From contig NZ_JMIP02000014.1 in assembly GCF_000691505.1 (NCBI RefSeq), forward strand, positions 237,943-301,942: a stretch of DNA of 64,000 bases, written 5' to 3'. A model generated the notes under the pieces. The model ran no database searches and was not told the DNA's origin. It was given only the letters and a program-made list of their open reading frames with translations. Below are positions 2,092-12,420 of this stretch, in pieces. Position 1 is the first letter of the stretch. Every line of letters starts with the position of its first letter. Made by a program: the position numbers and the translations under genes. The stretch is from Halostagnicola sp. A56. GTDB lineage: Archaea; Halobacteriota; Halobacteria; Halobacteriales; Natrialbaceae.

Positions 2092-2160
2092 ATGAGCGCG
2101 ACAGTTATCTCGAGTACGGTAGCGGCTACTCGTCTTCTGACACGGCGGTGGTTTGCGTGA
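2092..2160 (+). CDS. Putative 22-residue leader peptide ORF
   Basis: An ATG at 2092 opens 22 codons (starting MSATVISSTVAATR, ending TRRWFA) whose TGA at 2158-2160 overlaps the GTG start of the reductase at 2157 (GTGA). The ATG lies at the expected transcription start for the TATA-like element at 2060, so the ORF would be the first translated unit of a leaderless mRNA and would couple translation into the reductase. It is too short to judge by codon use alone. It contains no cysteine, unlike some bacterial leader peptides of sulfur operons. Real translation is an inference. Confidence 0.4.
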   Translation: MSATVISSTVAATRLLTRRWFA

Positions 2161-3857
2161 ACACGACAGAGCAATACAAACAGAATAAACACCCCCTCGA
2201 TGTCATCGACGACGTCTACGAGTACGCCGAGGACGAACTCACCTTCGAGGAGATCGAAGAGCGAGCGGGCGACGGTGAGTGGGAACGGCTGAAGTGGGCC
2301 GGCATGTACGCCCAGAAGCAGCAGGGCTACTTCATGATCCGAACGAAGGTCCCCGGTGGAAAACTCACGCCGGAGCAGGCCGAGGTCATCGGCGAGGTCA
2401 CCGACGACCTCGCTGTCGCTCCCGAGGAGTACGGCGGCGAAGAGCAGAACGAACTCTGGGGCGACGCGTACCTCGACATCACGACCCGACAGGACATCCA
2501 GAAACACTGGATCCGCGTCGAGGACGTCCCGGAGATGTGGGACCGGTACGACGAGGTCGGCCTGACGACGGTACAGGGCTGTGGCGACGGCGCTCGAAAC
2601 GTCCTCGGCTGCCCCGCGGCCGGACTCGACGATCACGAGTGCTTTAACGCACAGCCGGTTATCGACGCGGTCTCGGACTACTTCACCGGGAACCGCGAGT
2701 ACGCCAACCTCCCGCGGAAGTTCAAAATGACGATCACCGGCTGTGCCCACGACTGCGCACAGTCCCAGATCAACGACATCGGACTCGTCCCCGCGAAAAA
2801 GGAAATAGACGGCGAGTACCTCTACGGATTCCACGCCCGCGTCGGCGGCGGCCTCTCCGACGGCCCGCGGATGGGATCGGAACTCGACGCCTTCATCCGA
2901 CCCGAAGACGCCGTCGAGTTCTGTCGCGCCGTCGCCCAGACGTTCAAGGAGATCGGTGACCGCAACAACCGCGGCGTCTGCCGCATGCGGTATCTGGTCC
3001 AGCAACTCGGTCCGGAAAAGTTCGAGGAAGCCATCCGCGACCGCTGTACGATCGACCTGCCTACCGCTGGCGAGAACCTGACCGTCGGCTACAAGGGCGA
3101 CCACGTCGGCGTCCACGACCAGAAACAGGACGGTCTGCAGTACGTCGGCTTCAACGTAATCGCTGGCCGGATGGGTGGCGACGAGTTCGCCCAAGCCGCC
3201 CGCGCAGCGGAGAAATACGGCACCGAGGAGGCCTCCGTTCGCCTCGCGACCGACCAGAACTTCCTCATCACGCACATCCCCGAGGAGAACGTCGAGGATC
3301 TGCTCGCAGAGCCCTTCGCCGCAGACTACCAGCCGGATCCCGGCCCGTTCTCCCGCGGTGCGGTCGGCTGTACGGGCAACGAGTTCTGTAACTACGCGAT
3401 CATCGAGACGAAAAAGCGTACCAAGCGCTGGGCTCGAGAACTCGACGAGCGCATCGACACGCCCGACGACCTCGAGGTCGTCCGGATGCACATGTCGGGC
3501 TGCTCGGCTTCCTGTGCACAGCCCCAGATCGCGGACATCGGCTTCCGCGGCGAGACCGTCAAACTCGAGGGCGACGACTCACCCAACGAAGAGGGCGACA
3601 ACCTCGTCGAAGGGATGGACTTCGGCCTCGGCGGTTCGCTCGGTACGGACAACGAGTTCCTCGACTGGATCGAACACGCGGTTCCGGCCGATTCGGTGAT
3701 TCCGGCGCTCGAGCGACTGTTCGACGCCTACGCCGACGAAAAGTACGACGACGAGCAGTTCTACGCCTGGTGTCGCCGCGTCGACAACGACCGGCTACGC
3801 TCGATCATGCAACAGGCCGACGCTCCCGTTGCAGGAGGTGTTGCCCATGGGGACTGA
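2157..3857 (+). CDS. Siroheme nitrite/sulfite reductase
   Basis: The 566-residue protein belongs to the ferredoxin-type nitrite/sulfite reductase family, which performs the six-electron reduction of nitrite to ammonia or sulfite to sulfide with siroheme coupled to a 4Fe-4S cluster. The C-terminal half carries the diagnostic cluster/siroheme cysteines CTGNEFC (Cx5C) and GCSASC (Cx3C), followed by AQPQIADIGF. The N-terminal half has a parallel TGCAHDCAQSQINDIG and an RxVLGCPAAG segment. I chose the GTG at 2157 (MNTTEQYKQ) because it overlaps the leader ORF; a GTG at 2148 is the alternative. It overlaps the next gene by 11 bases, so the two form an operon. Whether nitrite or sulfite is the physiological substrate cannot be read directly; the partner gene favours an F420-fed sulfite or nitrite reductase. 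Confidence 0.9.
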   Translation: MNTTEQYKQNKHPLDVIDDVYEYAEDELTFEEIEERAGDGEWERLKWAGMYAQKQQGYFMIRTKVPGGKLTPEQAEVIGEVTDDLAVAPEEYGGEEQNELWGDAYLDITTRQDIQKHWIRVEDVPEMWDRYDEVGLTTVQGCGDGARNVLGCPAAGLDDHECFNAQPVIDAVSDYFTGNREYANLPRKFKMTITGCAHDCAQSQINDIGLVPAKKEIDGEYLYGFHARVGGGLSDGPRMGSELDAFIRPEDAVEFCRAVAQTFKEIGDRNNRGVCRMRYLVQQLGPEKFEEAIRDRCTIDLPTAGENLTVGYKGDHVGVHDQKQDGLQYVGFNVIAGRMGGDEFAQAARAAEKYGTEEASVRLATDQNFLITHIPEENVEDLLAEPFAADYQPDPGPFSRGAVGCTGNEFCNYAIIETKKRTKRWARELDERIDTPDDLEVVRMHMSGCSASCAQPQIADIGFRGETVKLEGDDSPNEEGDNLVEGMDFGLGGSLGTDNEFLDWIEHAVPADSVIPALERLFDAYADEKYDDEQFYAWCRRVDNDRLRSIMQQADAPVAGGVAHGD

Positions 3858-5493
3858 TGGCGAGAACGAGCGAAGCGAGTCCTCGGAGCGAACGAGCGGC
3901 GAGGACCAGCCGTTCCCGGGCGTTCCCGAATCGGACAGTGACGACGGCGACAAAGACGTAATCGTTCCCGAGACCACCGGCCACGCGCCGCGGTCGCGAG
4001 CCGTCACCGACAACGCTCGAGAGGGTGCGATTCAGCCCGCAGCCGATGGTGCAAGCGGCCATTCCGATGGCGCTGGTGGCAGTTGCTCACCCAACACCTG
4101 TACCTGCGGCGAGAAAACGCAGGAAAAGACCGTCGCGACCGACGGTGCGGGTGTCGCGAACGTCGACGAGATGGGCGAACTCGGCGACCTCGAGTTCACC
4201 GACCCCGCGGAGGGGATCAGTCAGGACGTCGACAACGGTTCGCCAGACGAGCGCGTCGGCGTTCCCGACGGCGTCGACCTTGAGACGCCCGAGTACTCGA
4301 TCCGCTCGGAGATGAACGACATCGAGACGCCGGACGAGAAGACCTGGTTCATGGAACTGGACGAGGCAGTCATCGACGACGGCCGCTGTATCCAGTGTGG
4401 AACCTGTGTCGCCGCCTGTCCATCGGACTCGATCGGCGTCGGCGACGACGGCCTGCCGGAACTGGTCAAGATGTGTACGGGCTGTTCGCTCTGTTGGGAC
4501 TTCTGTCCCCGCGGCGGCATGCGCTACGAGCGCCAGTGGAAGATCACCGGCGGCGACGACAACGTCAAGGGCGCCGGCGACCCGATCACGGAGTTCTCCG
4601 CCCGGGTCGACGAGGACTGGACCGAGGGTGCACAGGACGGCGGCGTCGTCACGACCGTCCTCTCGCACCTCCTCGAGGCTGGCGAGATCGACGGCGCGCT
4701 CATCGCGACCGAGAGCGACGAGGAAGCCTGGAAGGCCGAAAGCTACCTCGCGACGAGCCACGAGGATCTGATCGAGAACGCCGGCACGATATACAACCAG
4801 ACGCTGGCGCTCGGCAACCTCGACCTCGAGCAGTGGGAGCATAAGCTCCCGGACAAGCCGTTCGACGAACTTAGCCTCGCGCTCGTCGGAACGCCGTGTG
4901 AGATCGAGGGGATCCGCGCGCTGCAGGACTTCGAGTGGGACTATCAGGCCCAAAACGAGGGCATCCGCGCGGTCGATTACACAATCGCGCTGATGTGTAC
5001 GAAGAACTTCAACTACTACAGCCTCATGGGCGAGCAGTTGGAGGACCAGCGCGGCATCTCCCCCGACGAGATCGGCAAGATGGACGTCCTCCACGGCAAG
5101 CTCATGGTCTACGACCACGACGGCGAGATGATCTTAGACGAGGACATCGAGAACTTCCACGACGCCGCGCTCAAAGGCTGTGACGAGTGTGCGGACTTCA
5201 CCGGCTTCTGTGCCGACCTCACCGTCGGCTCGGTCGGTTCTTCCGACGAGTACTCGAGCGTTATCGTTCGAACCGAACAGGGCATGAAAGCCTGGGAGAT
5301 CACCGAACCCGATCTGGACTACCACGATCTGGAGGACAAGTCCGCGGTCGGTAAGCTCCAGGGCTGGGACAAGAAAAAGGCCTTCGAGAGCCTCGAACGA
5401 CCGTTCGATCCCGACGCGCCTCGGTTCATCGACTATACGGATCACGCGGAGAACTACGGCACCGAGTTGAATCCGCACGACTACGGTCACTAA
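3847..5493 (+). CDS. FrhB/FpoF-like F420H2 dehydrogenase subunit with two 4Fe-4S motifs
   Basis: The 548-residue protein has a long acidic N-terminal extension (about 160 residues) with a small cysteine group C80, C85, C87; then two 4Fe-4S motifs, CIQCGTCVAACP (C181-C191) and CTGCSLCWDFCP (C210-C220); then the FrhB N- and C-terminal domains, with the landmarks ALVGTPCEIEGIRAL and CDECADFTGFCADLTVGSVG. FrhB-type subunits bind FAD and coenzyme F420 and pass electrons between F420H2 and iron-sulfur clusters; haloarchaea make F420. The ATG at 3847 has a GGAGGTG ribosome site six bases upstream. Overlap with the siroheme reductase implies that it delivers electrons from F420H2 to that enzyme, as the fused N-terminal half of methanogen Fsr does. 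That partnership is inferred. Confidence 0.85.
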   Translation: MGTDGENERSESSERTSGEDQPFPGVPESDSDDGDKDVIVPETTGHAPRSRAVTDNAREGAIQPAADGASGHSDGAGGSCSPNTCTCGEKTQEKTVATDGAGVANVDEMGELGDLEFTDPAEGISQDVDNGSPDERVGVPDGVDLETPEYSIRSEMNDIETPDEKTWFMELDEAVIDDGRCIQCGTCVAACPSDSIGVGDDGLPELVKMCTGCSLCWDFCPRGGMRYERQWKITGGDDNVKGAGDPITEFSARVDEDWTEGAQDGGVVTTVLSHLLEAGEIDGALIATESDEEAWKAESYLATSHEDLIENAGTIYNQTLALGNLDLEQWEHKLPDKPFDELSLALVGTPCEIEGIRALQDFEWDYQAQNEGIRAVDYTIALMCTKNFNYYSLMGEQLEDQRGISPDEIGKMDVLHGKLMVYDHDGEMILDEDIENFHDAALKGCDECADFTGFCADLTVGSVGSSDEYSSVIVRTEQGMKAWEITEPDLDYHDLEDKSAVGKLQGWDKKKAFESLERPFDPDAPRFIDYTDHAENYGTELNPHDYGH

Positions 5494-10480: not shown

Positions 10481-11344
10481 TTACTCGGCCTCGCCTGTCT
10501 CTACCGGCGCGTTGACGAGATTACCCCACTCAGTCCAGGATCCGTCGTAGTTGACGGCGTCCTCGTAGCCGAGCAGTTCGTGCAGTGCGAACCAGGCGAC
10601 GGACGAGCGCTCGCCGATTCGGCAGTAGGCGACGGTCGTCTCGTCGCCGTCGATGCCCTTCTCGGCGTACAGTTCCTCGAGCTCCTCCTGGCTCTTGAAC
10701 AGGCCGTCGTCGTCGGTGACCGCCGCCCAGGAAATGTTCTGGGCGCCGGGGACGTGGCCGCCGCGCTGGGCCGTCTCCTGGAGTCCTGGCGGCGCGAGGA
10801 TGTCCCCGCGGAACTCCTCGGGCGAGCGAACGTCGACGAGCGGAACGCCGCGCTCGATCGCGTTCTCGACGTCTTCGCGGTAGGCGCGAATGCTCTCGCG
10901 CGGGCCGGCCGCGTCGTACTCGACGGCCGACAAGTCCGGCTCCTCGTCGGTCGTCGGGTAGTCGTTCTCGAGCCAGTACTCGCGGCCGCCATCGAGCAGA
11001 TAGACCTCGTCGTGGCCGTAGTACTTGAACTGCCAGTAGGTGTAGGCGGCGAACCAGTTCGAGTTGTCGCCATAGAGGACGACGGTCGAGTCCTCGGAGA
11101 TGCCGTGACTGCCCAGTAGGTCCTCGAAGTCTTCCTTCTCGAGGATGTCCCGTCGCGTCTGGTCCTGAAGCTGGGTCTCCCAGTTGAAGCCGACCGCGCC
11201 CGGCGCGTGGGCGTCGTCGTACGCTTCAGTGTCGACATCGACTTCGACCAGTCGAAGGTCGGAATCGTCACTTTCGAACTGGTCGAGTCGGTCCTCGACC
11301 CAGCCAGCCGTTACGAGTACGTCGTTGGCGTATTCTGTTGCCAT
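10481..11344 (-). CDS. tssA: Thiosulfate/3-mercaptopyruvate sulfurtransferase
   Basis: The 287-residue protein consists of two rhodanese domains. The first (about residues 7-125) is inactive, with VVLYGDNSNWFAAY where the catalytic loop would be; the second ends with the active loop VAYCRIGERSS, whose cysteine would carry the persulfide. Such enzymes transfer sulfane sulfur from thiosulfate or mercaptopyruvate to cyanide or thiols. The start MATEYAND at 11344 is preferred over an upstream in-frame ATG at 11371. A second sulfurtransferase gene lies divergently 281 bases away, so the two share an upstream region. The symbol follows haloarchaeal usage from memory. Confidence 0.88.
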   Translation of the reverse strand: MATEYANDVLVTAGWVEDRLDQFESDDSDLRLVEVDVDTEAYDDAHAPGAVGFNWETQLQDQTRRDILEKEDFEDLLGSHGISEDSTVVLYGDNSNWFAAYTYWQFKYYGHDEVYLLDGGREYWLENDYPTTDEEPDLSAVEYDAAGPRESIRAYREDVENAIERGVPLVDVRSPEEFRGDILAPPGLQETAQRGGHVPGAQNISWAAVTDDDGLFKSQEELEELYAEKGIDGDETTVAYCRIGERSSVAWFALHELLGYEDAVNYDGSWTEWGNLVNAPVETGEAE

Positions 11345-11625
11345 ACACACCCGTAGGAACCTGCCCCACATAGTTCCCCTTCTAACCGGATAATGCAGTC
11401 ACCGCTTCATTTTACAGGAATATTTTGCCGGATTGGTCTGCGACGAACGATCGTATGCGGTTGAAACGACCGTATTCGATGTTTTCAGCCCTTCGTCTCT
11501 CTGCAACCGGAGAGACGATGAATCGGTCGACCACTGATGCGGATATATTTGCCACAACCTCGGCACCGATGAGAGCGGTGCCGGAACCGGTGACCTCTCG
11601 AGTCTGCGTCGAGATGGTTTCCTTA

Positions 11626-12420
11626 ATGGACGACGCCTACGTCGTTTCGCCGGAGTGGACCGAAGCGCACCTCGAGGATCCGTCCGTTCGCCTCGTCGAC
11701 GTGCGAGACGCCTGGGAGTTCGACGCTATCGGACACCTTCCGGGTGCCGTCAACGTTCCGTTCGACAGCTATCGCGACGAGGACAGCGACGAGCCGGGCA
11801 CGCTCCCCGGCGCGGCGGCGTTCGCCGACCTCCTCGAGGCCGCCGGCATCGAACCCGACGACGCCATCGTCGCCTACGACGACATGCACGGCGTGTTCGC
11901 CGCCCGATTCGTGCTGACCGCACGAGTCTACGGCCACGAGGACGTTCGGCTCTTAGACGGCGACTTCAGCGCGTGGAATCGGGAGCGAGAGACGACGAGC
12001 GACGAGCCCGAATTCGAGCCCTCGAGCTACGAGCCGGATCCACTCTCCACCGAGGAGAGCCCGTTGATCGACCTCGAGGGAGTCGAAGCCGCGCTCGAGC
12101 GCGACGCAATCTTTGTCGACACCCGCGAACAAGACGAGTACGAGGAGGCTCGCCTGCCCGGCGCGGTTCGGTTCGACTGGCGGGAGGTCGTCGACGACGA
12201 GACGCGGCGACTCAAGCCCGAGGCTGAACTCGAGGAGCTACTCTCCGAGCACGGCATCACGCCCGATCGTGAGATTATCCTCTACTGTAACACGGCGCGG
12301 CGGATCAGCCACACCTACGTCGTCCTCCGGGCGCTCGGCTACGAGAATATCGGATTTTACGAGGGGAGCCTCACCGAGTGGATCGCCGCGGACGGCGTGC
12401 TCGAGACCGGCAGCGAGTAG
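11626..12420 (+). CDS. tssB: Tandem-rhodanese sulfurtransferase
   Basis: The 264-residue protein has two rhodanese domains: an N-terminal inactive one (YDDMHGVFAARF in place of the catalytic loop) and a C-terminal one with the loop LYCNTARRISH, where Cys is followed by a loop unlike that of the divergent neighbour (CRIGERS). The different loops suggest different donors or acceptors. The ATG at 11626 (MDDAYVVSPEW) starts exactly at the domain; an in-frame ATG at 11614 is also possible, and longer versions read through non-coding-like sequence. It ends 153 bases before a small gene on the same strand. The symbol is from memory of haloarchaeal annotation. Confidence 0.85.
   Translation: MDDAYVVSPEWTEAHLEDPSVRLVDVRDAWEFDAIGHLPGAVNVPFDSYRDEDSDEPGTLPGAAAFADLLEAAGIEPDDAIVAYDDMHGVFAARFVLTARVYGHEDVRLLDGDFSAWNRERETTSDEPEFEPSSYEPDPLSTEESPLIDLEGVEAALERDAIFVDTREQDEYEEARLPGAVRFDWREVVDDETRRLKPEAELEELLSEHGITPDREIILYCNTARRISHTYVVLRALGYENIGFYEGSLTEWIAADGVLETGSE

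Follow-up and report, generated by a model that had tools for sequence, protein, structure and literature searches.

Two overlapping genes in the window (the whole stretch of 64,000 nucleotides of Halostagnicola sp. A56 DNA that was analysed) probably encode a two-subunit F420H2-dependent sulfite reductase of the assimilatory type (aFsr), a reading to which we give a probability of about 0.77. In the proposed mechanism the β subunit would oxidize F420H2 on its FAD and pass single electrons via three [4Fe-4S] clusters to an α subunit held in complex with it, which would reduce sulfite to sulfide with six electrons, the siroheme-[4Fe-4S] centre for this step lying in the C-terminal half of α. 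The idea of a two-gene F420-linked siroheme reductase, which the first-pass annotation put forward for this locus, is right in outline and not new. The haloarchaeal pair was named 'aFsr' by Susanti and Mukhopadhyay in 2012, including the proposed F420H2-linked reaction (PMC3448663), and aFsr-β was reused in an alignment in PMC9295563. The present genes do not differ in kind from those of 2012, being of the same class, with the same two subunits, genomic association and proposed reaction; the earlier sequences include Haloterrigena turkmenica, and here a close ortholog is found in Haloterrigena salina, others occurring in Natrinema, Natronococcus and further haloarchaea. With an aSir-type siroheme subunit, an Fsr-N/FpoF-type partner (FrhB plus two N-terminal 4Fe-4S motifs) and a haloarchaeal host, the pair appears to be a well-supported member of this predicted enzyme family. 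A literature search that covered mostly papers outside subscription, bioRxiv being left aside, yielded PMC3448663 and PMC9295563 as the only relevant papers on aFsr and F420 and found no biochemistry on the enzyme. New compared with the 2012 work are the evidence for sulfite, the hypothesis of a cluster in the N-terminal half of α, the alternation with a paralog called N2, a rhodanese-fused sister clade and a Cys3 motif in β. Neither the last three nor the N-terminal-half cysteines and a Lys/Asn contrast are mentioned in the accessible part of the main text of PMC3448663.

Table 1. Features of the α-β locus and free rhodaneses in the window (α residues are counted from GTG 2157; A, window-type α)
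Feature	Position	Strand	Remarks
aFsr-α	2157..3857	+	566 aa, GTG start; Pfam NIR_SIR / NIR_SIR_ferr
α start	alternative GTG at 2148		ortholog alignment A1 begins MNT at codon 2157
Sulfite-binding positions R111 (TTRQ), R147 (ARNV), K188 and K190 (PRKFK)	2487..2726	+	invariant in 43/43 orthologs
C142, C152, C196, C200 (CX9C...CX3C), candidate second [4Fe-4S] site	2580..2756	+	43/43 in A
Siroheme-coupled [4Fe-4S] ligands C405-x5-C411 ... C449-x3-C453	3369..3515	+	invariant in 103/103 aligned haloarchaeal paralogs
AGGAGGT, Shine–Dalgarno-like, before β ATG	3833..3839	+	direct reading
aFsr-β	3847..5493	+	548 aa; Pfam FrhB N and C; overlaps α by 11 bp
CX4CXC (CSPNTCTC) in variable acidic N-terminal tail of β	4084..4107	+	CX2-4CXC in 40/41 β-A tails
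β [4Fe-4S] motif A, CX2CX2CX3CP	4387..4422	+	invariant in 61/61
β [4Fe-4S] motif B, CX2CX2CX3CP, complete as in FpoF/FqoF	4474..4509	+	invariant in 61/61
Free double-rhodanese sulfurtransferase	10481-11371	-	
Free double-rhodanese sulfurtransferase	11635-12420	+	52-55% identical to clade B α N-terminus

Both ORFs are complete, and the coordinates, the motifs and the overlap (3847-3857) agree with what the first-pass annotation had given. The β ATG, as read from the sequence, begins 7 bases past the end of an AGGAGGT stretch, an arrangement consistent with translational coupling of α and β. A scan for promoters of the sigma-70 type, which is unsuited to an archaeon, yielded nothing useful. When 392 Halobacteria genomes were searched with α and with β separately, each had its ortholog in 118 genomes, and the two sets were identical. 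In all 118 the β gene lies directly downstream of α on the same strand, which excludes the family-wide separation that had been named as an argument against a functional pair. In 116 of them the gap between the genes lies between −164 and +374 bases; the two larger gaps, 852 and 952 bases, are those of G323, with a frameshifted α, and G136, in which β was matched as two pieces. In G323 (L132:3985-7353) α is broken into two frames next to an intact β, reflecting either a sequencing error or a pseudogene. Since the same 118 genomes hold both genes, on the same strand and with α immediately before β, this obligatory pairing is not due to chance. The two proteins have also diverged in parallel: their pairwise distances, uncorrected for shared descent, show a Spearman coefficient of 0.93 over A and its sister clade B (61 pairs) and a correlation of 0.86 within A (41 pairs). 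Shared descent by itself also yields high correlations of this kind.

The fold of α is that of an assimilatory, NirA/aSir-type A-B-A-B protein. Pfam detects two NIR_SIR stretches (NIR_SIR E 6e-53) and two NIR_SIR_ferr stretches, and no Fer4 domain was found in the same scan. Among PDB entries α is closest to plant nitrite reductase (E about 1e-85) and Mycobacterium tuberculosis NirA (E about 4e-69), with Fsr far behind (E 2e-7). This domain plan is shared with the ferredoxin-dependent NirA/SirA enzymes, which are single subunits fed by ferredoxin, whereas α would have a dedicated flavoprotein partner. Like the group I Fsr of methanogens (7np8, 7npa), the haloarchaeal pair combines an FrhB-type F420H2 oxidase with a siroheme centre, and it has the same four sulfite ligands (PMC10229431). 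However, Fsr is one polypeptide while here there are two ORFs, and its siroheme half is Dsr-like, with only one repeat, into which a ferredoxin domain is inserted, while α is NirA-type and duplicated and has no such Fsr-C insertion. The siroheme half thus rules out a methanogen Fsr cut in two, which the designation 'split Fsr' had implied; what holds of that proposal is a two-subunit, probably F420H2-linked siroheme reductase whose genes are always together.

The β subunit is predicted to be an F420H2 dehydrogenase subunit resembling FpoF and the N-terminal half of Fsr. Its FrhB_FdhB_N and FrhB_FdhB_C domains follow a dicluster ferredoxin region, and its best PDB match is the F420-dependent sulfite reductase 7np8 (E 5e-39). 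The domain plan and the complete CX2CX2CX3CP motifs, whose definitions were taken from PMC9295563, are those of FpoF/FqoF; FpoF feeds a membrane complex, whereas β presumably feeds α and differs also by its long acidic tail, in which a Cys3 motif lies. No CX2-4CXC motif was seen in the tails of 20 β-B proteins, and binding of a metal or of sulfur by the β-A motif is a guess. All 61 β sequences share 12 core cysteines, which would be enough ligands for three [4Fe-4S] clusters, one beyond the two motifs reported earlier. A third β paralog, 69% identical and without an α neighbour, was encountered in two loci (L130:4801-6084, minus strand; L131:5059-6342, plus strand). In L130 it adjoins an FAD-dependent reductase-like gene and a short-chain dehydrogenase, and is possibly part of another F420-linked reductase.

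Haloarchaea possess four siroheme paralogs: N1, the stand-alone N2, A (the window type) and B, an A-like protein extended at its N-terminus by a double rhodanese. In a maximum-likelihood tree rooted with a single distant outgroup each of them forms one clade, and A and B group together (98/92) against N1 and N2 (97/94). As A and B share this branch, the association with β may have arisen once. The clade B fusions (L080-L099, e.g. L087:2603-6277) are followed by a β of their own in 20 of 20 sampled loci, mostly starting at or beside the B stop codon. PMC11237513 had already mentioned the rhodanese fusion, without a link to an F420-type partner in the accessible part of that paper.

Whether such an enzyme would act on sulfite or on nitrite, a choice that the first-pass annotation had left undecided, can be approached from the active site. 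Two Arg and two Lys residues of the anion site are conserved across sulfite reductases (PMC10229431), and α has all four together with the CX5C...CX3C pattern of siroheme sulfite reductases; no variation occurs at the equivalent positions of A, B and N2. The fourth anion-binding position is Asn in 20 of 20 N1 paralogs and in plant nitrite reductase, as in nitrite reductases of the NirA/NasD kind, versus Lys in 43 of 43 A proteins. It is also Lys in M. tuberculosis NirA, an enzyme that Schnell 2005 (cited in PMC11237513) calls a sulfite reductase in its title. A literature search for N226K found nothing. N1 adjoins the nitrate reductase gene nasA in 18 of 21 loci, and the one adjacent representative scanned scored above the cutoff of NCBIfam NasA_Halo. 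NasA is not among the conserved neighbours of A, which by eye look housekeeping (ribosomal, prefoldin, FtsY) and carry no information on the substrate. Over a set of 97 genomes, A tends to be present where N2 is missing and vice versa (both in 5, A only in 17, N2 only in 59, neither in 16; Fisher p 3e-6, uncorrected for phylogeny), and in the family of the window's host N2 is present in just 1 of 16 A genomes. This alternation suggests one shared function for A and N2, with the nitrite job falling to N1. The source genome (84% complete) has only two siroheme reductases, α and an N1; three relatives in the genus (99% completeness) have two α matches each, the second confirmed as N1 in two of them. 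The invariant Lys, the separate Asn-type N1 linked to NasA and the alternation with the Lys-type N2, which is not seen with N1, together favour sulfite over nitrite as the physiological substrate. The same evidence makes an F420H2-dependent nitrite reductase, with a role in assimilating nitrate/nitrite or in detoxifying nitrite, an unlikely reading of the pair, even though α is NirA-like and F420-dependent nitrite reductase activity has been reported for FsrII of ANME, which is related to Fsr (PMC9295563). Three further points count against the assignment to sulfite. The top NCBIfam score of α, below the cutoff, is that of ferredoxin-nitrite reductase, and ATP sulfurylase (PF01747) is detected in only 3 of 97 genomes. 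Sulfite reductases, moreover, frequently reduce nitrite as well. The PAPS_reduct family PF01507 matches in all genomes and does not discriminate, the copy of the source genome being CysD-like and below cutoff.

Two other readings concern the partner protein and the source of the sulfite. A haloarchaeal β paralog adjoins another flavoprotein, and β could be an adaptor for ferredoxin or some other donor that no longer uses F420. This seems quite unlikely for a protein with both FrhB domains, all the clusters of FpoF and its best similarity to F420-using enzymes, in a genome that encodes F420 biosynthesis (CofD) and F420-NADP reductase (npdG); F420H2 would accordingly be the donor on the reading we prefer. 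On the other hand, the pair might handle thiosulfate or polysulfide, with a rhodanese delivering sulfite and the β Cys3 tail acting as sulfur carrier. In clade B the same reductase does come fused with a double rhodanese, and one free rhodanese of the window resembles its N-terminus (Table 1). However, in A the rhodanese lies 6 kb off, outside the operon, and methanogen Fsr does not take thiosulfate (PMC10229431), which leaves this possibility very improbable.

Coming back to the F420H2-dependent sulfite reductase, α probably has a second [4Fe-4S] cluster in its N-terminal half. The cysteines C152, C196 and C200 are kept in 20 of 20 proteins of clade B and align to the siroheme-cluster ligands when the two halves of α are compared with each other (hhalign, 95% probability); M. 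tuberculosis NirA and plant nitrite reductase lack them at the positions that align. Among the N1 and N2 proteins all three are Cys in 28 of 40, and all three are gone in 10 of the other 12. Canonical aSirs have lost one of two sites (PMC10229431), and it is from this loss, the conserved cysteines and the alignment of the halves that we infer a retained site. An AlphaFold2 model of α built with 27 orthologs (mean pLDDT 56) was too poor for cysteine distances, and an electron-relay role of the second cluster is speculation. We tentatively propose, at somewhat less than even odds, that α is an aSir-type protein that never lost its N-terminal-half cluster. The F420-linked A and B would keep the site in all their sequences, and electrons from β would perhaps enter α there, the stand-alone paralogs would lose it repeatedly, and the rhodanese-fused clade would be an F420-linked thiosulfate-to-sulfide enzyme.

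A review of 2021 counted just one reported F420-dependent reaction in halophilic archaea, where the importance of the cofactor was called enigmatic (PMC8305020). In this context the pair, which about 30% of the Halobacteria genomes sampled carry, is a strong candidate for a main F420-consuming enzyme, and a candidate sulfite reductase of those organisms without the stand-alone type. The cysteines in the N-terminal half of α may, in addition, preserve a step between the two-site Dsr-type and the one-site aSir-type sulfite reductases.
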